Origin: Mycoavidus sp. HKI
GTDB taxonomy: Bacteria > Pseudomonadota > Gammaproteobacteria > Burkholderiales > Burkholderiaceae
Length of the DNA: 64,000 nt
Reading direction: 5' to 3'
Assembly (NCBI RefSeq): GCF_020023735.2
Contig: NZ_CP076444.2
Location: 1,131,501-1,195,500 of the forward strand
The position numbers were made by a program, and so were the translations under genes. Shown piece after piece: positions 3,005 to 45,159 of this stretch. Below the pieces are notes generated by a model. The model worked only from the letters and a program-made list of their open reading frames with translations, did not search any database and was not told where the DNA came from. Within the stretch, counting starts at the first letter, position 1; every line of letters begins with the position of its first letter.

Positions 3005-6000
3005 CTAACCTTTTTGTAATTTTTCCAACCTATTAGCCAACACTCGGCCAATTTTGGCCATCGGCTCCGACTGATCCATGTACTTATGTTCGCAATGGAT
3101 ATCATGAGTTTCAATATCTCCAAGCACATAAGGCTTCCACCGATCAGGGGAGTTGGCGAATCGATCTTCTACTACTGTGGCACAGAAAAAGAGTACGTCG
3201 CCACGGTAAATAAGTGGTGCAAAGTCTTCTGAAATGCGCTCGTTGTTTCTGATGACATCTCCAGCTTTTTCCCATAAATATTTCCCTGCATCAGCCATTC
3301 CTTCAACGCTGTAGCGATTAAGAATAGTGATGAAATCATCATCCTGATCGACTACATCACTTAAGCGGGAGAGGTCTGGATAGCTATCCATTAAAGCAAG
3401 CAGTGCGACTTTCTCACCCTGTTGCTCAAGTTGAGTTGCCATGCTGTACGCAATATTGCCGCCCAAGGACCATCCGAGTAGGTTGTAAGGCCCATCAGGC
3501 TGCACGCGACGAATCTGCTCGATATAATCTGCCGCCATCGCATCAATGCTTGGTGGCAGTGGTGCCGAGCCATTCATACCGCGTGCCTGTAGACCATAGA
3601 TCGGTTGGTCTTTACCTAAATGTTGAGACAGACCGATATAACTCCAACTGATACCGAGAACGGGGTGGATGCAAAAAAGAGGCGGTCGTGTGCCTGATGG
3701 CTGAATGGGAAGCAAAACATCAAATGAATCTTCCTGAGCGCTATTTGGCTGCATTAAACGCTGCGCCAAGTCGGCTACGGTTGGAGCCTCAAATAATGTA
3801 CGTAATGTTATCTCGATGCCTAACATCGAATTAACACGGCTCATCATCCTCACAGCAAGAAGCGAGTGTCCGCCAAGCGCAAAGAAGTTGTCGTGACGGC
3901 TAACTTGTGTAAGGCCCAACAATTCACTCCAGATTTTTGCCAGCGCTATTTCAATCTCCCCCTGTGGTGCTTCGTATATCTGGCGTGCAAAGTCTTCGTC
4001 AGACGGCACCGGCAATGCTCTTCGATCTAGCTTACCATTTGGTGTTAGCGGCAACGCATCTAAGCGTATAAAAGCACTGGGCATCATATATTCAGGCAGC
4101 TTAGCAGCTAGGTGGGTGCGTAATGTAATAGCAAGCGGCTCATCAGCCTCAGCCACCATATATGCAACTAGGCGTTTATCACTTCCTTCACCCAGGGCAA
4201 GTACCACTGCTTCACTTACCTGCGAATGTTCAGTCAGGCGCGCTTCGATTTCACTCAGCTCAATACGAAAGCCGCGGATCTTGACTTGATGATCGTTACG
4301 GCCTAGGAACTCCAGATTACCGTTGGGTAGATAGCGGACCAAATCGCCCGTCTTATACATCCGAGCGTTGACTTGATCACTGAATGGATCAAGCAAGAAG
4401 CGCTCTTTTGTCAATTCAGGACGATTCAAATAACCACGCGCGACGCCAGCCCCACCGATATACAACTCTCCTACCATCCCAAGTGGAACGGGCTGCATCA
4501 ATGAATCCAAAATATATAGTCGTGTATTGGCAAGTGGACGACCAATCGTGCGCCAGTGACTATCGTCAGCGGTTACGTCATGAGCCGTATTAGTAATCGA
4601 AGTTTCGGTGAGGCCATAGCCATTCAATAAGCGTGGACGATGGCCTGTCCCAGTAAACCACGCCTGATGAGCTGCTGCCGCGCTGAAGGCATCTCCGCCA
4701 GCATAAATCGTACGCACGCACCCCGGGATAGCTACCTGCTCTTGAACCAGTTGCGCCCAAAATGGGGTTGGTAAATCAACCACGCTAATTTGGTTAGCTT
4801 CGCACAAAGCCCAGAATTGCGTGGCTCCTGCCACCCAGGCATCGGTACGCAACACAAGGGTTGCACCACGAGTCAAAGTAAGAAAAATTTCTTCGACAGA
4901 GACATCAAAAGAGAGGGAAGCAAATTGCAGCATGCGATCCTGCGAACTAAAGTCCAGTAATTTAGCTGCCGCGGTCACATCATTGACTACGTTTCGGTGC
5001 TCAACCATCACGCCTTTCGGTCGACCTGTAGAACCCGAGGTATAAATCACATAGGCTAAATGCTCTGCATTTAGTCCAAATTTATATGGATCAGGATTGA
5101 GGCTACTATAACGTTCCCATTGCGTTGCATCAGCTTGTAAGTCTAAGACCGGAACCTCAGCGCCTAAGCATTGCACAACGGCGGCATGCGGCACACCAAT
5201 ACTCAGTAAAGCCACCGGCGCACAGTCTGTCACCATATCCACTAAACGTTCGGGCGGATAGTCTGGATCTAACGGCACGTAGGCCCCACCTGCCTTGATC
5301 ACCGCCAACATAGCTATTACAGCCTCTATGCTGGACTGTGCAAGTAATGCTACGCGGCTATCGGGCTGCACCCCTAAGTCTCTCAGGTAGCGGGCAAGGC
5401 GATTCGCTTGCGCGTTGAGTTCTGCATAGCTGACAATCTGGTTATCTCGTACTAATGCAACAGCGTCCGGCGTCCGCTCAACTTGCTCCTCAAATAGCCA
5501 ATGAAGACATTGGTGCTCGGGATAAGGTATTGCCGTCGTATTCCATGTATTCAGTAACAATTCTTGCTCGGAGGGTGGCAACACTTCCAACTGGTAAACC
5601 GGCTTGTCTGGCGTATGTTCTAGTGCGTCGGCCAAACTTTGCATTGCCTGATGCATATAACCACAGACTCGTTTTGCATCAAATGGCTGTGCGATGCTAG
5701 CCGTTAACCCTAACGCTTGCCCAAAGTCTTCTATGGATAGCCCGATCGGATAGTTATCACGCTCCTCTGTTCCTAGCAATTCAGCGTCGACACTGATTTG
5801 CCCTTCATTTTGCATTCTCTGATGCCGATAGTTCAGTAATGCGCTAAACAGTGGGGTACCAGCTGGCACCCCACTGCAACGTTGGGCTAGCGCGAGAGAT
5901 GCGTGCTCATGTTCCAACAAGGCAGCCAATCGTGTTTGGGTGTCACGCACACCCTCCTGAACACTGCAACGGTCTACATCGATGCGGAATGGCAATGTAT

Positions 6001-25643: not shown

Positions 25644-27818
25644 ATGCTTTTGTCAAGACTCCAGCCAATTGGCTTTGCGCTCGGTACACTCTCCTTTTTA
25701 GCCAATGCACACAGAGGCGAGATAGAGGACGGTCTAAACAATCCAACTGCCGTTCTCTCCACTAAGACTATCTCGCCTTTTGGGGTAGCCAATATATCCA
25801 ACACTGCAGCTGATTCTCTTCACGGAATTGTTTACGGTACGCCAGACACGAGCGTCCCGGTGGGCGCAGGCGTACCCATTACCATGATGGGGCATATGAG
25901 GGCGCTCTTTGATCTTATTAAGGAAGCGCCTGATTTCACACAAGTGGTGATGGACCTCGGCGACGGTAGCCCGGTACATGTGTTAGATACGAATACGGGG
26001 GATAAATTTTTGCCTGGTAAGTTGGCGCTCGGTCTGTCGTATATATTGATTGATATGAAAATGAAAGACGATCCGAATTACGCGGACTACCTTGCGACTT
26101 ATCAAAAAATAACTACCGTAATGATGACACAGATGAGCGGCGCCAACTACATGTATGCAAATAATTCCTGGGGTGAATATTACTACCTCCTCGCGCTCAA
26201 TAATTTTAAAGTGCACGGTATGCTCAATGAAGTCTTCAGTGATGCAATGCTAGATCGTCTGGCCTTCTGCGATATGTTTGGCGTAGGTGCAAGCAGCAAT
26301 TTGAATACATGCCCTGCAGCAGGCATGCCGATCGATATTGCGTCGCTTAATTCTGCTCAAAATTACTATGCGGTTGCTTACGGAATTGCCGGCTTGAGAC
26401 AAAAATTAGGGTGGAGCAATCCGACCTTCTCCTCCCCTACCAACCCGGCTGTGGCATCAATGGATGCGCCCGAGGCACTTTTATATGCAATTACTAATCA
26501 TATTAGAAACGATTCTTCGGATGGGTTTTCTGACGAAGCCTCGAATGTTAATACCACCTATTATGATCAGGCGCGCTTTGATCGATACAGCGCTTTGCTC
26601 ATTGCTGAAGTCGTCGAACGAACTCTAGAAATAGGCAATGAGGCTAATTTGACGCAAGAATTAAAAGGTTATCTGAGGAAATCAGTCGACCTCATTCTTC
26701 CTCAGCTCAATACCGATGGTCAGGGTTTCAACTATGGCCGATCTATTGGCCCATATGGGGATTCGGCTTTTGCGGAAATCTTAACTGCGGCGGCAAATAC
26801 AGGCGTGTTGTCCAAGCAAGAAATGCAGATAGCCTATTCATTTATCTATAAATCGGCTTATCGCTTTAACACTTTCTGGTACGACCCAACCTTGCCCACG
26901 CCATCGGTGAATCTGTGGGTTAAAGGCCGTGGCACTGATGCATATCGCGGCAAGCCTCGTGTCATGGGTGAGAATTTCAGCCTCTTACACCAATACATGT
27001 ATATGAATGCTTGGTGGAACAAGCTAAATTTTGGCGGTAAAGCATCAATGCCTGATCCTGACTTTCAAGCCTGGCTGGATATGATGCCGCATTACACTCT
27101 CACCTGGTACAACCTGCCTACCGATAAGGCTCACCCGTATAGCGCAGCGCTAATCACGGTGCGCGATGAAAAGCGCATAATTAATCTGAACCTGAACCAA
27201 GCGCCTGATTTTGACTTGCAGACTCCGTACTATCCAATACCTTTTTCCGACAAACTGATCTATGGAACAGCGGATCTGAGCTACGCATTGTTGATCCCTC
27301 AGATTTCTTATAACGGGAAAACTTACATTCCGGTCACATATTATCAAAATCTGAGTGTGCAGGAATGCAACGGCCAGGTTATGGTGTCCTTCGACATGGC
27401 CAATTTCAGGCAAACCGTAAAAAACGCAAAATATGCCACAGATATCGACCTGCAAACCCATACGGTTTTGACGTTTGGTCGAGGCGCTATAACGCGAACT
27501 GATACGCTAAGTTCTAGAACGCTAACTGGAAATATCTCCGTCGAGACAGATTTCACGTCTTTTGCCGATTTTCAGAGCGCCGCAACCAATGATGATGGTT
27601 TTTCGGCTACCTATGCAAATAGTGATGTCACTAATTATGGCACCATGGGATTTGATCACTGCGCACTGTCTAATTTTGAGATGACAGGCGGGGTAATCAA
27701 TCCGTTTTCAACAACCGTGATTGGGCAGCTACATTCGAATTTTGCTTGTACGACGCGTCCCTTCGAGTTGAAGGCGGGCAGTACTCGTGCATTTACTTGG
27801 ATTCTGAAGTACGCTTGA
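25644..27818 (+). CDS. Predicted exported 724-aa protein, possibly polysaccharide-lyase-like
   Basis: Function not recognised with certainty. The start has GAGGG 9 nt upstream of the ATG and a signal-peptide-like N-terminus (LLSRLQPIGFALGTLSFLANA). The first half (about 80-450) is rich in evenly spaced helices with aromatic clusters (WGEYYYLLAL, QGFNYGRSIGPYGD, YMYMNAWWNKL). That pattern resembles alpha/alpha-toroid domains of polysaccharide lyases and heparinase-like enzymes. The second half (about 490-724) looks beta-rich, like the beta-sandwich that follows such toroids. It stands alone, flanked by transposase debris and a duplicated gene fragment. An exported carbohydrate-active or surface protein is the best guess. 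Confidence 0.55.
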   Translation: MLLSRLQPIGFALGTLSFLANAHRGEIEDGLNNPTAVLSTKTISPFGVANISNTAADSLHGIVYGTPDTSVPVGAGVPITMMGHMRALFDLIKEAPDFTQVVMDLGDGSPVHVLDTNTGDKFLPGKLALGLSYILIDMKMKDDPNYADYLATYQKITTVMMTQMSGANYMYANNSWGEYYYLLALNNFKVHGMLNEVFSDAMLDRLAFCDMFGVGASSNLNTCPAAGMPIDIASLNSAQNYYAVAYGIAGLRQKLGWSNPTFSSPTNPAVASMDAPEALLYAITNHIRNDSSDGFSDEASNVNTTYYDQARFDRYSALLIAEVVERTLEIGNEANLTQELKGYLRKSVDLILPQLNTDGQGFNYGRSIGPYGDSAFAEILTAAANTGVLSKQEMQIAYSFIYKSAYRFNTFWYDPTLPTPSVNLWVKGRGTDAYRGKPRVMGENFSLLHQYMYMNAWWNKLNFGGKASMPDPDFQAWLDMMPHYTLTWYNLPTDKAHPYSAALITVRDEKRIINLNLNQAPDFDLQTPYYPIPFSDKLIYGTADLSYALLIPQISYNGKTYIPVTYYQNLSVQECNGQVMVSFDMANFRQTVKNAKYATDIDLQTHTVLTFGRGAITRTDTLSSRTLTGNISVETDFTSFADFQSAATNDDGFSATYANSDVTNYGTMGFDHCALSNFEMTGGVINPFSTTVIGQLHSNFACTTRPFELKAGSTRAFTWILKYA

Positions 27819-27940
27819 CTTGTGCCTTCTAAGAACCTATCCACAAATTAGGGGTAATATGCACATAGCTGCCCCAAGTGCCATCTTTGTCTGCATAGGT
27901 TGTGCCGGCTCGACTCGGTCTTAAATGTCTAGACCGCTGA

Positions 27941-28189
27941 TACGTTAAGTGCTTCAATCCCAAAAAGCTTAAAGAAATTATCACTCGTCGCGCGGGCGAC
28001 TAAAGTCTCAGTTTCACCACGCAATTGCGCCACAAAACGGCCCACATGGCTTACAAAAGCCGATTCATTTGTCTGGCCACGGTGTGGCACTGGTGCTAAA
28101 TAAGGAGAATCGGTCTCAATCAGTAGGCGCTCCAATGGCACGCGCCGAGCAAGCTCTTGCAGATCGCGCGCATTTTTAAAAGTGACAAT
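27941..28189 (-). pseudogene. Relic second copy of the tatD 3' end (long direct duplication)
   Basis: 249 bp matching 29263-29511 without indels at about 95% identity (13 differences, nearly all transitions). It encodes the tatD C-terminus (ARDLQELARRVPLERLLIE...) with a changed tail (NFFKLFGIEALNVSAV). It begins 7 bp beyond the rpn stop, in the same orientation as the intact tatD on the far side of rpn. It marks an insertion of rpn between two copies of the target gene end. Confidence 0.85.
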
Positions 28190-28195
28190 TACGAT

Positions 28196-29071
28196 TCAAT
28201 GACATGTAAGCTCTTTGATTTTATCGTCAGAAAGTTTAGTGACTTGCTTGATCAAATCTAGCGCGGCACCTTCTGCTAGCAGATTTTTAGCAATTTCAAG
28301 CGTAGCTTTTTGCCAGCCCTCTTCAATTAAATATTGTGCAGCAGACATAATATCCTCCCGGTAATGTGGTGCGATGTTAATCATAGATTGGACAAATTGC
28401 TTGTCGATTCCTCGGCCTTCCTTTGCTAGATAATATAGTAATGCTTGTCTTTTTTCAATCGAAATTGGATAACGCTCAAATAGCTCAACTATTTTTGGTG
28501 CAAGCTCCATCAATTCCCGATCATGAATGTATTTTTGCGCCAATTCCATTACTGCACAACGTTTATGTGTCATCAACACTTCGTCTGGTATAGTCGATAA
28601 CGCAATCAGTTGAATGGGTTCTGTTAATGCAAATATTTTTTGTGCTATTGGCTTGTGTCTGAAACACTCTAAAAGACAGAGTGAGCCTTTATATGGATCT
28701 GTACCCCGATAAAAAATTAATGGCAATACCACCGGTAGCAATGTATCGCCTTGATTAAGGTGTTGTTTCATGATGGCACTTTGATAACGCCACAGCTTAA
28801 AAGGCGTTAACTTACCTACCGCACTTTCATGTTCTAGCAGGATATACGCTAAGCCTTGGTTTTTCATTATGTGGACTGAATAAACAATATCGCTGTAATG
28901 CTGGCTTAAATTGGACTCAACGAATGCGCCCGGAGCAAGGGATAGAGTATTGAAATCAAATTCTTGTTGCCAAGAGTCAGGCAAATGGATTTGTAGAAAT
29001 TCTTTAGCAATCTCGACATCCATAAGAAATAATTTAAATAAGGCATCGTGCGGCATTGATAAGTTGTTCAT
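28196..29071 (-). CDS. Rpn-family recombination-promoting nuclease / putative transposase
   Basis: 291 aa, PF04754-like PD-(D/E)XK nuclease family known in E. coli (RpnA-E) to promote RecA-independent recombination. N-terminal HDALFKLFLMD, Asp61 in HYSDIVYSV and Glu80 in ILLEHES are the catalytic core; the usual Glu-x-Gln is Glu82 here. LWRYQSAIM and VVLPLIFYRG follow as in the family. The C-terminal AKNLLAEGAALDLIKQVTKLS repeat-like tail is conserved in the pseudogene copy at 40520. It is inserted between the tatD 3' duplication and intact tatD. The frame is intact. Confidence 0.85.
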   Translation of the reverse strand: MNNLSMPHDALFKLFLMDVEIAKEFLQIHLPDSWQQEFDFNTLSLAPGAFVESNLSQHYSDIVYSVHIMKNQGLAYILLEHESAVGKLTPFKLWRYQSAIMKQHLNQGDTLLPVVLPLIFYRGTDPYKGSLCLLECFRHKPIAQKIFALTEPIQLIALSTIPDEVLMTHKRCAVMELAQKYIHDRELMELAPKIVELFERYPISIEKRQALLYYLAKEGRGIDKQFVQSMINIAPHYREDIMSAAQYLIEEGWQKATLEIAKNLLAEGAALDLIKQVTKLSDDKIKELTCH

Positions 29072-29247
29072 CTAGCATTTATCTTGTTTGTTGACTTACC
29101 GCCAACAGGTTGAGAATGCTAAATATTCTGGCACGATGCCCCAATAATAAATACTAGGCTGAATGGCTAATTTGTTTTCCCTGATCTAGGAGCTCTGAGC
29201 ACAATCGGATGGCCTCGTTGTCTTTCATCAATCTGGACAATCAATGT

Positions 29248-30048
29248 CTATTCAACTTCTGCTACGTTAGGGGCTTCGATCTTAAAAAGCTTAAAGAAAT
29301 TATCACTCGTCGCGCGGGCGACTAAGGTTTCAGTTTCGCCACGCAATTGCGCCACAAAACGGCCCACATGGCTTACAAAAGCCGGTTCATTTGTCTGGCC
29401 ACGGTGTGGCACTGGTGCTAAATAAGGGGAATCGGTCTCAATCAGTAGGCGCTCTAATGGCACGCGCCGAGCAAGATCTTGCAGATCGCGCGCATTTTTA
29501 AAGGTGACAATCCCAGATATGGAGATATAAAAATTCAGCGCTATCGCTGCCTCAGCGACTTGCCAACTCTCGGTGAAGCAATGCATCACCCCCCCCACTT
29601 GATCGGCACCCTCTTCGCGCATCAACCTCAGGGTGTCATCGGCGGCTGCGCGGGTATGAATAATTAACGGTTTGCCGACTGCACACGCGGCCCGAATGTG
29701 CGTGCGAAACCGTGCGCGCTGCCATTCCATCTCAGCGGGTGTTCGGCCTTCTAGCCGGTAATAGTCGAGCCCGGTTTCGCCAATCGCCACCACTTTGGGG
29801 TGCGCAGCAAGCTCGATGAGCTGCGCAACGCTCGGCTCTTGCACATTTTCGTAGTCTGGATGCACGCCCACTGAAGCAAATAGATTGTCATGGGCTTGCG
29901 CAACGGCCAGCACCTCTGAAACAGTTTCAAGGTTAACGCTCACACAGAGTGCATGGCTAACTGAATGAGCGCGCATGTTTTCAAGCAATTGCGGCAGCCG
30001 CTCGATCAACCCCTTAAAGTTGAGGTGACAATGTGAATCAACAAACAT
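29248..30048 (-). CDS. ycfH: TatD-family metal-dependent deoxyribonuclease (YcfH type)
   Basis: 266 aa TIM-barrel amidohydrolase-like DNase. Metal-binding motifs: DSHCHL (4-9), GETGLDYYR (about 91-99), HTRAA, MHCFTES, and ETDSPYLAPVPHRG near the C-terminus. It is the last gene of a run mltG-tmk-holB-GNAT-tatD in the order common in gammaproteobacteria and Burkholderia. Its 3' 250 bp exist again at 27941. The intact copy's last residues (KIEAPNVAEVE) differ from the relic, so its 3' end may be the incoming sequence. Confidence 0.93.
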   Translation of the reverse strand: MFVDSHCHLNFKGLIERLPQLLENMRAHSVSHALCVSVNLETVSEVLAVAQAHDNLFASVGVHPDYENVQEPSVAQLIELAAHPKVVAIGETGLDYYRLEGRTPAEMEWQRARFRTHIRAACAVGKPLIIHTRAAADDTLRLMREEGADQVGGVMHCFTESWQVAEAAIALNFYISISGIVTFKNARDLQDLARRVPLERLLIETDSPYLAPVPHRGQTNEPAFVSHVGRFVAQLRGETETLVARATSDNFFKLFKIEAPNVAEVE

Positions 30049-39911: not shown

Positions 39912-40124
39912 TTAATAGAGTTTTTTAGGCAGCATCTGACCACGCAAACGCTTGAAATGACGCTTGACTGCGGCTGCTTTTTTACGTTTACGCTTAGCTG
40001 TTGGCTTTTCGCGAAACTCGCGTGCGCGCAACTCAGTTAAAAGTGCATTTTTTTCAATTGTGCGCTTAAAGCGCCGCATTGCTACTTCGAACGGTTCGTT
40101 CTCTTTAACGCGAATAGTGGTCAT
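39912..40124 (-). CDS. rpsU: 30S ribosomal protein S21
   Basis: 70 aa, basic. [21 protein letters not shown], then [21 protein letters not shown], the standard bS21 sequence. First gene of the rpsU-yqeY-dnaG-rpoD run. The divergent neighbour would normally be tsaD; here a tsaD relic lies 75 nt away and the intact gene 4 kb away. Confidence 0.97.
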
Positions 40125-40199
40125 GTGTTCAGAGTGAGTTTATAAAATTTAGGGCAATTCAAAGGTCGACATTATAGCATAGGGAAAGAAATTAACTTA

Positions 40200-40415
40200 T
40201 GTCATCTATATGATTTTTCAGGATGCTGCGATATGTATTGCTGAATACGCGGTGCGGTGCGTGCCTTGCATTCACAAATTGACATGCATCGCGCCTATGG
40301 CGGTATCGTGCCTGAACTGGCTTCGTGCGATAGTATTCGGCGCGCGCTCCCCTTACTCTAACAGACCTTGGAGCAACCGCCATTACGCCCGCGGCGATTG
40401 ACGCAATTGCGTTTA
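40200..40415 (+). pseudogene. Relic 5' end of tsaD at its ancestral place beside rpsU
   Basis: 40262-40415 matches tsaD codons about 28-79 (44220-44374) at about 90% with one 1-nt deletion and a stop-creating change (TCTAACAG for CTGCAACAG). Weaker similarity reaches back to the position of the tsaD start near 40210. rpsU and tsaD are divergent neighbours in many proteobacteria, so this is where tsaD began before the rpn insertion. Confidence 0.85.
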
Positions 40416-40745
40416 GAAGATTGAATCCGTTGAGGAAAACGACCTACCGGTGACAAGCTGGATACACGTATCTTTTGTCGCGCTCACTGGACGCCATCCA
40501 TATATCTAACGATGAGATATTACATAAGTGCTAAAATTTTATCTTCAGAAAGCTTGGTCACTTGCTTGATAAAATCAAGCGCCACACCTTCCGCCAACAT
40601 ATTTCTAGCTATTTCAAGCTTAGCTTCTTGCAAGCCTTTTTGATGTCCCTTCTCAATCCAATCTACATTCCGCTACCCCTCATTTAAAAACTTGAATTTC
40701 GAACGGTTAGATCAGATCATACATATTAACCTCTAGGATAAAGTA

Positions 40746-41354
40746 ATGTTAGTAAGCAAAATTGTTTTGTTCGCATCGATATTATTTGCTGCAGCAAATA
40801 TCCCGGGTCCCAATATTGTCTTTTTAGTGGCACATGTATTATCTAAAGGAAACAAAGGAATAGCGTATTATATTTTTGCCATGTTGCTTGGGGAAGCTCT
40901 CTGGCTGTCTGTTGCTTACCTAAGTTTAAGTGCTTTACCCGGACATGCCGATTATATTATTACTATTATCAAATGGTTAGGCGCAACATATCTGATGTAT
41001 ATTGCTTTTAATTTATGGAAAGCGGATTCTAGTATTGAAGCTTCCAGACAAGAAATGACTTCAAAAAATATGTTTGCCGCTGGAATATTCCTGAGTATCG
41101 GGAACCCAAAGATAATGATATTTTATGTTTCGGTCTTGCCATTTTTCGTTAGCGGTGCTGATCGAAAGTTTACTTTACTGCTTATCCTAGTAGCAACCAT
41201 GGCGGTTGTGGTGGGATTCGTCTATGCAATCTGGTTAATCTTTGCAACAAAGCTCAGAAACCTTTTTGGGTCACCGAGATTCATCGGGCTATTGAATAAA
41301 GGATGTGCCTTGCTGATGATCGTGTGTGCTACTTTTATTGCATTGAGCAAGTAA
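40746..41354 (+). CDS. LysE-family amino-acid/metabolite exporter
   Basis: 202 aa, about six hydrophobic segments. Family start VLFASILFAAANIPGPNIVFLVAHVLSKG (the PGPN motif), then AMLLGEALWLSVAYL, IIKWLGATYLMYIAFNLW, and FLSIGNPKIMIFYVSVLPFF with the conserved NPK. Inner-membrane efflux of amino acids or related compounds; RhtB-like. TAGGATAAAG lies just upstream of the ATG. It converges on the radical SAM gene and shares a terminator with it; both travel in the inverted-repeat cassette. Confidence 0.88.
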   Translation: MLVSKIVLFASILFAAANIPGPNIVFLVAHVLSKGNKGIAYYIFAMLLGEALWLSVAYLSLSALPGHADYIITIIKWLGATYLMYIAFNLWKADSSIEASRQEMTSKNMFAAGIFLSIGNPKIMIFYVSVLPFFVSGADRKFTLLLILVATMAVVVGFVYAIWLIFATKLRNLFGSPRFIGLLNKGCALLMIVCATFIALSK

Positions 41355-41367
41355 CGCAAAAATATCT

Positions 41368-41413
41368 AAGAGAGGCGAGAGCTTTCAGGAACAAAGAATA
41401 TCTCGCCTCTCTT
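41368..41413. terminator. Bidirectional terminator between lysE-like and radical SAM genes
   Basis: Perfect 13-bp stem (AAGAGAGGCGAGA at 41368-41380 with its complement at 41401-41413) lies between two convergent stops (41354 and 41418). On the minus strand it is followed by ATTTTT; on the plus strand by a weaker CCTTTAAT. Confidence 0.85.
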
Positions 41414-41417
41414 GCCT

Positions 41418-43031
41418 TTAATATCTAAGCTTTTCCATAAAATTATTGCTCATAGAAACTTCATATTTTTCGAAGCGGAGCCGATCTTCTCGCCGCACAG
41501 TGACGGCATAATGCTGATTGATCAGCCATTTGTAGTTTTCGTCCCGCGTATCCGGAATTTCATCGCATTTATCTTTAGCAAATTTGCTATAGAAATAGTA
41601 GGTAATCTCTTCAAGTCGAGCTAATCCCTGGTCCGTAAACCGGATGCCATGTATCGATTTGTCTAGCTCAATCAGATCAAGCGAGTGCAAGGCATTGAGT
41701 GTTTTGCCCATTATCTTGTCAATGCTTACATTATAGTTTTTCTCTATTGCAAGTAGATTCTCTGTTTTGACATTTGCAAGGCCGAATATTATTTTTCGCC
41801 TGGCGCGTTCCTCATTGTCATATTGACCAATCCGCCATATCGCTGGGTATCCTTCATTAATCCTCTTTCGGTGTTCTTCTGTAGAGCAAAAGTTGAAATA
41901 TTGTCCAGCCCAATCATTATGAGGCCCATTGAGATAGCCGAAGGATGACGGACCAAACCCGATCAGGTTAACGCATTCAAATTTGTCTGCTTGCTGTTCT
42001 GGACGTATAGCAGGGCGATGCAGATACGAAATTGGCCCATCAATAAATCCTTTGTCATGAAGAGCCATTCGAGCCATCAGCCACATATTGGCGCGTGTGC
42101 TAGAGTCATTGAACGCTTCCGGGTTCAGTTCTAATTTTTTGGAAATTGGGTCGCTCTCCCTCATAATAGTGGGAAAGACATTTATAACACTCAGTTCTTT
42201 TATCTCAGATAGCGTTTCCACAGTAGAGTACATGGAGTCATACGTTTCATACGGGAGTCCTGCCATGAGCGCAGTAATAAATGATGTAAATCCTTCTTCG
42301 ATACAAATTTCTACAAGTCTCAAATAATCATCGAGTGATGAGTTTTTTCTTTGGATAAAATCAAGCGTTTTTTGGTTTCCGCTTTCCAAATCAATTACCA
42401 GGTCAGTGAATCCAAAGCTTTTGAGGATCCTTAGCTTTTCCCTAAGATAATTCTCATCATAATGCTTCGGATAGATTTCAGTTTTTATTTCAGCATCGCT
42501 CTGAATGTCTAAATATTTTTCGCATGCTTTCAGTAGCCGAACAAGGCCCTGATTGGTCATCAACGAGGGAGTCCCTCCACCGAGTTGTAGTGACCGTGCC
42601 TTGATACGCTGTCCCATGATCTGGGTATTTAGTTGCAGTTCGGCTATAAGTGTATCAATGACTTCTGTCTCACGTCTCTCCACGTTGTCTAAACTGGTTA
42701 TCTTCTTGTGAAAATGACAAAATGAGCATAGTTGCTCACAGAAAGGGTAATGGAGATATACTTCAAATGTACTACCCGCCATCTCCGACAATATCTCTTT
42801 AGCTCTCTGGCCACTGATTTCTGACATGGCTCGAAGAGGATAATAATGGGATATGTAATAGAAGCCGTGAAAGGTTCGCCTTATTCCGAATTCATCAAGG
42901 CGTTGTAAGCCCGTTTCAAATACCTTTGCCTTCTCTTTATAATGAGCCGCTGCAGCATTCATTATCGGGTGCAATTCGGCGTAACTGTCAATGGGGTACT
43001 GAGCTTCAGTTAGGGATAAAATTTGTTTCAT
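41418..43031 (-). CDS. HemN-like radical SAM protein
   Basis: 537 aa. Fe-S motif CEQLCSFC (CxxxCxxC, about residues 103-110) preceded by EVYLHYPF as in HemN/HemW. LQLGGGTPSLM is the SAM-binding glycine motif, followed by KTEIYPKH, DLVIDLESGNQ and a HemN C-terminal-like segment (NLIGFGPSSFGYLNG; IFGLANV). The N-terminal about 80 residues are unlike HemN, and it pairs with a LysE exporter in a mobile cassette. A specialised HemN-like role (methylation, cyclopropanation or another radical step on a small molecule) is more likely than haem synthesis. That is inference. The start has GAGGA 5 nt before the ATG. Confidence 0.8.
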   Translation of the reverse strand: MKQILSLTEAQYPIDSYAELHPIMNAAAAHYKEKAKVFETGLQRLDEFGIRRTFHGFYYISHYYPLRAMSEISGQRAKEILSEMAGSTFEVYLHYPFCEQLCSFCHFHKKITSLDNVERRETEVIDTLIAELQLNTQIMGQRIKARSLQLGGGTPSLMTNQGLVRLLKACEKYLDIQSDAEIKTEIYPKHYDENYLREKLRILKSFGFTDLVIDLESGNQKTLDFIQRKNSSLDDYLRLVEICIEEGFTSFITALMAGLPYETYDSMYSTVETLSEIKELSVINVFPTIMRESDPISKKLELNPEAFNDSSTRANMWLMARMALHDKGFIDGPISYLHRPAIRPEQQADKFECVNLIGFGPSSFGYLNGPHNDWAGQYFNFCSTEEHRKRINEGYPAIWRIGQYDNEERARRKIIFGLANVKTENLLAIEKNYNVSIDKIMGKTLNALHSLDLIELDKSIHGIRFTDQGLARLEEITYYFYSKFAKDKCDEIPDTRDENYKWLINQHYAVTVRREDRLRFEKYEVSMSNNFMEKLRY

Positions 43032-43080
43032 TTAGTTCCTCACAATTTTCTATGCTCACTATGTCCTGTATTTCTTATAA

Positions 43081-43321
43081 CCTACATTCCACTACCCCCG
43101 CTTTCAACGAACAGTATTTAAAGTTATTGATTTATAATAACTATTTATATTTTCTTTGACGGCCGTTCGGCTAGCGAGCCGCTTACTATGCTTCTAAAAG
43201 CTTGATTTTCGGGCTGGATCCTACGTATTGCTATTGCCACCTTTTTAAGAAAAAAATGTAACTTATTGATATATAAGAATTATTTTTTCTTAAAAAATGA
43301 GGGGAGGTAGCGACATGTAGG
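43081..43321. repeat. MITE-like block with CCTACAT ends
   Basis: About 241 bp, no coding capacity, starting CCTACATTCCACTACCCCC and ending with the inverted GGGGAGGTAGCGACATGTAGG-like end. The interior is AT-rich with an AAGAAAAAA/TTTTTTCTTA pairing. It could be a non-autonomous element or the right arm of the larger cassette. Confidence 0.5.
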
Positions 43322-43905
43322 ATCCAATATTGTGCAATCGACGTAATGTCCTCCTGATAATGTGGTGCATGGCTAATCACAAATTGGACAAACTACTGTT
43401 GATCCATTCCTCAATCTTCTTTTGCTAGATAATATAGCAATATTCTTATTTTTTCAATCGCTAATGGATAGCGCTTAAAGAGTTCGAATACCTTAGGCAC
43501 GAGTTGCGAAAAATCCAAACTGCAGATGCATTTTTACGCTAATTTCATTACTGCACAAAACTTATGCGTCATCAATACATCATCCGGTATGGCTGATAGC
43601 GCAATCAGTTGGATGGATTTTGTCAGCGCAAATATTTCTTGTGCTATCGCTTTGTGCCTGAAGCATTCCAACAGACTGAGCGGGCCTCTATAAGGGGCTG
43701 CTCAGTGATAAAAAATCAGCGGCAGGACCACGGGTAGCAAGGTATCACCTTGATTCAGGTGCTGCTTCATAATGGCGCTTTGATAGCGCCATAACTTAAA
43801 TGGATCAGTTTGCCCACAGCACTCTCGTGTTTGAGCAAAATATACGCCGAGCTTGGTCTTTTGCTACGCGAATTGAGTAGACTAGATCGCAATCGCTTAA
43901 TCGTT

Positions 43906-44139
43906 GTTAGTCATGTGCTACACATTCTGTCACGGCGTCCAAACGATGATGGGAGTTGAACCTAATCCGGAGAGCAGGGCATTCGCAATATGAGACAATG
44001 CTTCAGGCTGCCAAAAATTTGTTTGGCGAACATCAAGAGGGTGAGCATCCATCGCAAGCCGCATTTATCTCTGTTTGACGAAAATAGACTTCGGTAGCAG
44101 CTAAACCTTAAACAAAACTCTCGTTAACTTATTATCTTT
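43906..44139. other. Right flank of the rpn unit, upstream of tsaD
   Basis: No gene supported. Separates the rpn pseudogene 5' end from the intact tsaD and must supply its present promoter. A frame reading QYETMLQAAKNLFGEHQEGE may be a scrap of another gene but is too short to name. Confidence 0.4.
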
Positions 44140-45159
44140 ATGCTCGTTTTCGGTATCGAAAGTTCTTGCGACGAAACCGGACTCGCGTTTTATGAAACAG
44201 AACGCGGTCTATTGGCGCATGCCTTGCATTCACAAATTGACATGCATCGCGCCTATGGCGGTGTCGTGCCTGAACTGGCTTCGCGCGATCATATTCGGCG
44301 CGCGCTGCCCCTCCTGCAACAGATCTTGGAGCAAGCTGCCATTACGCCCGCGGCGATTGACGCGATTGCGTTTACGCAAGGCCCCGGACTCGCCGGCGCG
44401 TTACTGGTAGGCGCGAGCATTGCCAATGGCCTTGGCCTAGCGTGGGATAAGCCGGTGATTGGCATCCATCATTTGGAAGGACATTTGCTCTCGCCATTAC
44501 TGGCCAACGATCCACCCTCATTTCCGTTTGTTGCCTTATTGGTCTCGGGCGGCCATACGCAGTTAATGCGCGTGACCGATATCGGCGACTACGAAATGTT
44601 AGGTGAAACGCTCGATGATGCGGCGGGTGAGGCATTTGATAAGACCGCGAAATTGCTTGGGCTAGATTATCCGGGCGGCCCGGCTGTGTCACAGTTAGCG
44701 ACCACCGGTACGCCAGGAGCGGTTGTTCTGCCACGGCCAATGCTCCACTCAAAAGATCTCGACTTCAGTTTTAGCGGTCTTAAAACAGCAGTGCTCACGC
44801 AGGTAAAGCAATACGGCCAGCCACTTGACGAACAGGCCAAGGCAAATCTTGCCCGCGGTTTTGTCGATGCCGCAGTTGATGTCCTCACCGCAAAATCCGT
44901 GCAGGCCCTTAAACAAACGGGCCTAAGCAGGCTGGTCGTGGCCGGCGGAGTGGGCGCTAATCAGCAGTTGCGCGCCGCGCTTAAAGTCGCGGCACAAAAG
45001 TATGCCTTTGATGTGCATTATCCAGACCCAGAATTATGTACCGATAATGGCGCAATGATTGCGCTGGCTGGTGCGCTCAGGTTGCAGCGTTGGCCGGAAC
45101 AAGCCAATAAGCATTACGCTTTTACGGTGCGGCCACGCTGGGATTTGGCTGCGATTTAA
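44140..45159 (+). CDS. tsaD: tRNA N6-adenosine threonylcarbamoyltransferase
   Basis: 339 aa. [16 protein letters not shown] start, metal ligands in [67 protein letters not shown], and [10 protein letters not shown] near the C-terminus. Completes t6A37 of ANN-decoding tRNAs with TsaB/C/E; essential in most bacteria. Its 5' third is duplicated beside rpsU. Confidence 0.97.

Follow-up and report, generated by a model that had tools for sequence, protein, structure and literature searches.

Genes of the rpn type behave as mobile genes yet lack the hallmarks of transposons. rpn is a DNA-cutting defence gene. The window studied here is a 64,000-nucleotide (nt) stretch (G000:C1:1131501-1195500) of the 2,254,889-base genome of Mycoavidus sp. 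HKI (G000). Mycoavidus is a fungal-symbiont bacterium and its genome is described as a decaying symbiont genome. At two loci of the window, beside tsaD and beside tatD, an rpn gene lies between an intact gene and a decayed partial direct copy of the same gene. We use T for the segment of the intact gene, T′ for its decayed partial copy and unit for the rpn-carrying segment between them. Two independent events are recorded at these loci. Each of them was probably, at a rough 55%, a one-step illegitimate insertion with a long target duplication and capture of an rpn fragment. The comparison was made with the same-genus (sister) genomes G001 and G002, and G010 was added for the tsaD branch changes only. 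The names rpsU, earP, uvrC, antitoxin and methyltransferase are read from the sequence, with no family search behind them.

At the tsaD locus the features are as follows.

39912..40124, minus strand: putative rpsU, the left neighbour of the locus, an open reading frame (ORF) starting at 40124
40192..40415, plus strand: T′, the decayed copy of the tsaD 5′ part (BLAST-supported at 40256-40415, weaker in the extension to 40192)
40416..40516, minus strand: rpn 3′ flank carried with the unit, matching the 3′ flank of rpn copy L064 of the same genome
40517..40653, minus strand: 3′ part of the rpn pseudogene, about 91% identical to rpn copy L061
40654..43321, no strand: later cassette inside rpn, with a LysE-type translocator and a radical SAM (S-adenosylmethionine) protein
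43322..43949, minus strand: 5′ part of the rpn pseudogene and a short upstream stretch, about 180 nt missing relative to L061
43950..44123, plus strand: filler that separates rpn from intact tsaD and includes a fragment resembling a SAM methyltransferase C-terminus
44140..45159, plus strand: intact tsaD, an ORF, whose segment 44124/44214-44374 is T

This order, with putative rpsU first, had been described in an earlier note written from the letters of the window, and it is confirmed by alignment and by the ORFs. Positions 40256-40415 match 44214-44374 with 90.7% identity over 161 aligned nt. Weaker collinear similarity extends to about 40192 and about 44124, and its score is reached by 3 of 200 shuffles; the upstream 60 nt of the copy tested alone are not significant (277/2000 shuffles). 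The adjacency to rpsU stands, while the distance given as 75 nt is about 67 nt by the extended alignment or 131 nt by BLAST alone. An extension of the copy in the other direction, into 40416-40540, was rejected as not significant (26/200 shuffles), and that stretch is rpn flank. The rpn pseudogene contains stop codons and scores 73.7 bits against PF04754 (cut-off 21). The gap 40416-44123 measures 3,708 nt, and removal of the cassette (2,668 nt, against 2,666 nt in the note) leaves 1.04 kb, in agreement with the former estimate. The methyltransferase-like fragment in the filler has a 60-nt match in G002. Its enzyme class is read from the ORF only, and a search of G000 and G001 at E 0.001 gave no second copy of it.

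The tatD locus follows the same plan, with a partial copy of 253 nt, an intact rpn and an intact tatD, as had been claimed.

27937..28189, minus strand: T′, the decayed copy of the tatD 3′ part, 253 nt with 94.5% identity
28190..29184, minus strand: rpn-carrying unit, common to the paralogous loci L057 and L058
28196-29071, minus strand: intact rpn ORF, 291 aa, PF04754
29185..29247, no strand: stretch between the rpn unit and the tatD stop codon, which does not align with what lies past the tatD copy and has no match in the loci compared
29248..30048, minus strand: intact tatD, whose segment 29259-29511 is T

An extension of the repeat past 29259 was rejected as not significant (66/200 shuffles). 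The product of the intact rpn scores 182.4 bits against PF04754 (Transposase_31 domain; curated cut-off 21) and 92.9 bits against the general Rpn model TIGR01784, above its cut-off of 52.1. Against the RpnA model it reaches 198 bits, below the cut-off of 583. Residues D61 and E80, candidates for PD-(D/E)XK catalytic residues, are invariant in 17 aligned Mycoavidus Rpn proteins. By position they resemble D63 and E82 of RpnA.

Are the two loci products of separate events? rpn is multicopy in G000, with 12 loci. The tatD unit matches L057 and L058 of the same genome from 28190 to 29184, and the tatD copy ends at 28189. The junction on the rpn 3′ side is thus flush. The tsaD unit is nearest to L061 (90-94% in three pieces), and its 3′ flank at 40416-40516 matches the L064 flank at 75%; therefore T′ meets the unit flush at 40415/40416. 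No microhomology is visible by eye at either of these rpn-3′-side junctions. The rpn gene at tatD differs from L061 by 1.37 synonymous substitutions per site (dS). Since the units come from different rpn lineages, and since both duplications are specific to the G000 lineage (one tatD and one tsaD in each of G001 and G002), the two events are independent, which bears out the earlier note. In G001 and G002, tatD is single copy, has no rpn next to it and is followed by another gene. tsaD is also single copy in each, apart from weak matches of about 30% to another protein.

The similar unit size, 1.04 kb at tsaD against 1.07 kb at tatD, had been taken as a sign of one mechanism. This argument falls: about 180 nt of rpn are missing from the tsaD unit, which carries about 100 nt of 3′ flank together with the methyltransferase-like fragment, so the agreement is a coincidence. 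Alignment of the two units end to end, proposed along with it, revealed no shared terminal sequence. Of 18 cross comparisons the best, between the two rpn upstream ends, is reached by 30 of 500 shuffles. Inverted repeats at each unit's own ends are not above shuffles either, of which 179 to 479 of 500 reach the score. Furthermore, the unit ends, including the 3′ limits, vary between rpn copies. With no shared ends and no inverted repeat, neither unit looks like a transposon.

The partial copies carry the marks of free decay. On the T′ branch, 2 synonymous and 7 non-synonymous changes are counted at tatD (against G001 and G002), and 1 and 7 at tsaD (against G001, G002 and G010). The corresponding counts on the T branch are 2/0 and 1/1. 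Ambiguous sites number 8/3 at tatD and 3/1 at tsaD, and the tatD count overruns the 253-nt repeat by about 11 nt. As the changes are mostly non-synonymous, the partial copies decay without constraint, like pseudogenes. The suggestion that the duplicated part of the intact copy might be foreign is not borne out, as no sign of foreign origin appears in intact tatD or tsaD in the comparison with G001, G002 and G010. The dS between T and T′ is 0.140 ± 0.051 at tatD and 0.111 ± 0.057 at tsaD. Between rpn and its nearest paralogue it is 0.068 ± 0.020 (tatD and L057) and 0.212 ± 0.047 (tsaD and L061). These values are compatible with one event per locus, though they are no proof of it.

The same T-unit-T′ order would also result if a circle or transferred fragment, with rpn joined to part of tatD or tsaD, had recombined into the resident gene by homology. 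rpn is common on plasmids, where 4669 of 72,556 records have a tblastn match. However, the copies differ by pseudogene-type changes, not by the divergence of a donor, and the rpn part has close relatives within the same genome. The origin of the chimera would also remain to be explained. We consider this route improbable.

In G001 and G002 the rpsU-tsaD gap holds an rpn remnant of a subfamily like that of L065 and L066, without a tsaD copy (L021 8084-8797; L022 about 5252-5750). A blastn comparison of these remnants with the G000 tsaD unit gave no match. Judging from these sequences, the site may have been struck twice by different rpn genes, or one may have replaced the other. The rpsU flank common to G000, G001 and G002 runs as far as 40191, the point at which T′ starts; this would be expected were the rpsU side the original start of tsaD. 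The comparison with empty sites called for earlier thus comes out unevenly: the sisters have a single tatD with no rpn beside it, whereas their tsaD site, without a tsaD copy, is occupied by a different rpn remnant.

These remnants bear on a stepwise origin, in which rpn was first inserted beside the gene, a piece of the gene was then tandemly duplicated together with rpn, and one rpn was finally lost. The rpn between rpsU and tsaD without duplication in both sisters is favourable to it. In addition, segmental tandem duplication occurs in the genus, as in G001 with its partial copies of putative earP and uvrC, and tandem direct duplication is the origin given for published rpn arrays in PMC10327210. 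However, the sister rpn belongs to another subfamily, with no blastn match as said above. The series also calls for one further deletion per locus that stops at the border of the partial copy on one side and leaves nothing of the second rpn. As no trace of a second unit lies beside the partial copies, the later deletion would need to be exact in both cases. A stepwise origin is rather unlikely, but it is the main rival of the one-step insertion.

Is the duplication tied to rpn at all? We scanned 369.5 kb of G000 for direct repeats of at least 80 nt and at least 78% identity with a gap of 0.3-6 kb, skipping pairs within one ORF. Only two partial-gene direct duplications were found, those at tatD and tsaD, and both hold rpn. 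The other two loci listed in the scan are whole-gene tandem paralogues. A flanking direct repeat is seen at 1 of 264 control ORFs, one with whole-gene paralogues on either side. The Mycoavidus rpn loci examined, fragments included, number 12 in G000, 7 in G001 and 9 in G002 (28 in total). Fisher tests give p 0.005 for 2/12 against 1/264 and p 0.025 for 2/28. Both are post hoc, since it was for these loci that the window was picked, and the rpn-locus and control-ORF counts used repeat criteria that were not identical. Mapping against G001 covered 800 kb and pieces, and the insertion junctions of L061 and L064-L067 are not defined by it. A scan of 800 kb of G001 for repeats gave 8 pairs, of which 3 lie within a single ORF. 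The other five comprise two in one segmental duplication, two at very large ORFs and one 257-nt partial copy.

The segmental tandem duplication (G001:C1 566282-572000, L275) has partial putative uvrC and earP copies around two lipoprotein-like paralogues. The 257-nt partial copy (81%; G001:C1 648554-650641, L279) derives from a transcriptional-regulator gene (Trans_reg_C), and an orphan gene separates it from the intact one.

The plan of L279 is similar to that of tatD but without rpn, which counts against a dedicated rpn mechanism. These counts bear on mere coincidence: a decaying symbiont genome would be rich in partial duplications as well as in rpn insertions, and the two would happen to meet. 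The 12 rpn loci of G000 and the partial-gene duplications with other cargo in G001 would fit. On the other side, rpn lies inside both partial duplications found in the 369.5 kb, and the control count points the same way, with the reservations just given for the test. Coincidence is accordingly the least probable of the explanations weighed here. The former claim of one mechanism and not chance is thus upheld as to chance; a dedicated rpn mechanism is not supported, given the 2 of 28 loci, the similarly young L058 with no such mark, the other cargo in G001 and the different rpn that both sisters have at the tsaD site with no duplication.

A wider survey of rpn loci for flanking partial gene duplications, also proposed before, gave no clean further case. 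With rpn-derived repeats counted, 19 of 82 non-Mycoavidus items have flanking direct repeats, including rpn tail copies in L124. In a filtered set of 75 non-Mycoavidus items, picked from a longer list of rpn matches, 9 have them, and five of these lie in arrays of G119 (L165, L166). The L151 repeat was read as a chemoreceptor domain and that of L201 as a palindromic repeat of intergenic type. No clean intact-plus-partial pair was seen on inspection of the 9 items, with L174 (78-nt repeat) left unplaced. A further set has repeats of 57-81 nt at 3 of 29 loci (L224, L234, L244), of which L224 and L244 were inspected. L224 looks like a dispersed repeat and had no match in an Rfam search; L244 has 79% over 57 nt. 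Long repeats were found at none of the five E. coli K-12 genes rpnA-E (longest 25 nt), and at none of seven plasmid-borne rpn genes, of which an Arsenophonus plasmid has six and a Sodalis plasmid the other.

Two observations from these sets are added. In L198 (5138-7005, G476), one of the 9 items, rpn sits within a complex duplication of an antitoxin-like gene: a 5′ copy comes first, then rpn, then a 3′ remnant and the intact gene. This is a partial parallel and is not counted as a further case. The rpn arrays of G214 and G119 (L149, L165, L166) have repeated intergenic sequence between members.

The one-step illegitimate insertion is supported by the T-unit-T′ geometry of the two loci, by the flush junctions on the rpn 3′ side, where no microhomology is visible, and by the lack of element ends. 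It would probably begin with a staggered break or a pair of offset nicks, and fill-in synthesis would copy the target stretch twice. An rpn fragment would be captured at the joint. Selection would then keep the gene copy with the whole reading frame, while the other copy decays. Tandem duplication with an inserted sequence at the joint is a class of repair product. It has the same geometry, U-T-insert-T-D.

Several points weigh against this one-step insertion. In the sisters a different rpn occupies the rpsU-tsaD gap with no duplication, which is the starting state for a stepwise origin, and with this remnant their tsaD site is not a true empty one. The ancestral rpsU-tsaD junction is not proven, because an internal stretch of about 25 nt is gone from T′ at tsaD and the sequence upstream of this copy does not match an outgroup. 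The rpn 5′ side is not flush: 55-74 nt of other sequence (the smaller figure by eye) is present at tatD, and up to 174 nt of filler separates rpn from T at tsaD. Long direct repeats occur at just 2 of the 28 Mycoavidus rpn loci, and the rest have none or matches of 17-31 nt. L058 has no duplication though its age is close to that of the tatD copy (dS 0.09-0.10 against 0.07). Finally, the dS comparisons are imprecise. As 26 of the 28 loci are without the mark, the claim is a limited one.

Could the Rpn nuclease itself take part? Endonuclease and recombination phenotypes of Rpn are reported in E. coli (PMC5350276 and PMC4498929), and they do no more than suggest an involvement. The nuclease would make the offset nicks or the break, and repair would copy the rpn gene into the gap, which would make rpn a selfish nuclease gene. 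We regard this as doubtful. If it were so, the long target duplications would decay and therefore be missed by searches for short target-site duplications.

The pattern has a precedent. For restriction-modification genes, "insertion with long target duplication" is credited to Nobusato et al. 2000, Gene 259:99, in PMC3031569, PMC1643837 and PMC4978471; the same paper stands in the reference list of PMC2654758. As in the restriction-modification case, a nuclease-coding gene lies between long, variable direct target copies as a lineage-specific polymorphism. Long direct target repeats are present on both sides at tatD and at tsaD, with the lengths and identities given above, and a single target copy in relatives without the insert holds for tatD in G001 and G002. 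Unlike that case, the cargo here is a solo rpn, filler is present on the 5′ side, and no empty-site strain is seen for the exact event. Since the cargo is rpn and not a restriction-modification system, the loci work like the known case but are not filed under that family.

Zhong et al. 2023 (PMC10327210) report that rpn genes come and go one at a time, that their ends vary and that inverted repeats and target-site duplications are absent. Kingston 2017 (PMC5350276) places rpnC in panC-panD, a locus perhaps struck twice. The units here share the single-gene gain, the varying ends, the lack of inverted repeats and, with rpsU-tsaD, a site perhaps struck twice. They differ from the rpn genes of Zhong et al. 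in that both insertions carry long target duplications. Insertion sequences are alike in the family name (Transposase_31) and the multicopy distribution, but the units here are without inverted repeats, shared ends or fixed 3′ limits. The earlier note knew of no description of rpn genes moving in this manner. This holds for rpn, as our literature search (open-licence papers only) turned up no account of rpn genes with long target duplications; it fails for the pattern as such, which is in print for restriction-modification genes. The long target duplication would thus be new for rpn. Two independent insertions of this kind offer a concrete, checkable mode of spread and tie rpn to the mobility of restriction-modification genes. 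The thing to look for at rpn sites is then partial copies of neighbouring genes, not short repeats.

Some neighbouring features complete the picture. The position of L057 is conserved in the genus: both its flanks match the G002 locus L075, and in G001 they sit at two different rpn loci. The rpn copies L068, L069, L074 and L075 lie at synteny break points between G001 and G002, with the left flank of L075 similar to L068 and the right flank to L069, suggesting that recombination may have occurred between rpn copies at these points. A 724-aa ORF at 25644-27818, without a Pfam match, is oriented convergently to the tatD copy; in G001 and G002 other genes follow tatD.

The cassette inside the tsaD rpn pseudogene (40654-43321) is younger than the rpn insertion. 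It holds two genes.

40746-41354, plus strand: LysE-type translocator
41418-43031, minus strand: radical SAM protein

The cassette has inverted-repeat-like ends (CTACATTCCGCTACCCCTCATTT and its partner) and ATCCAAT at both edges, which were read by eye, and from these features it looks like a transposon-type insertion.

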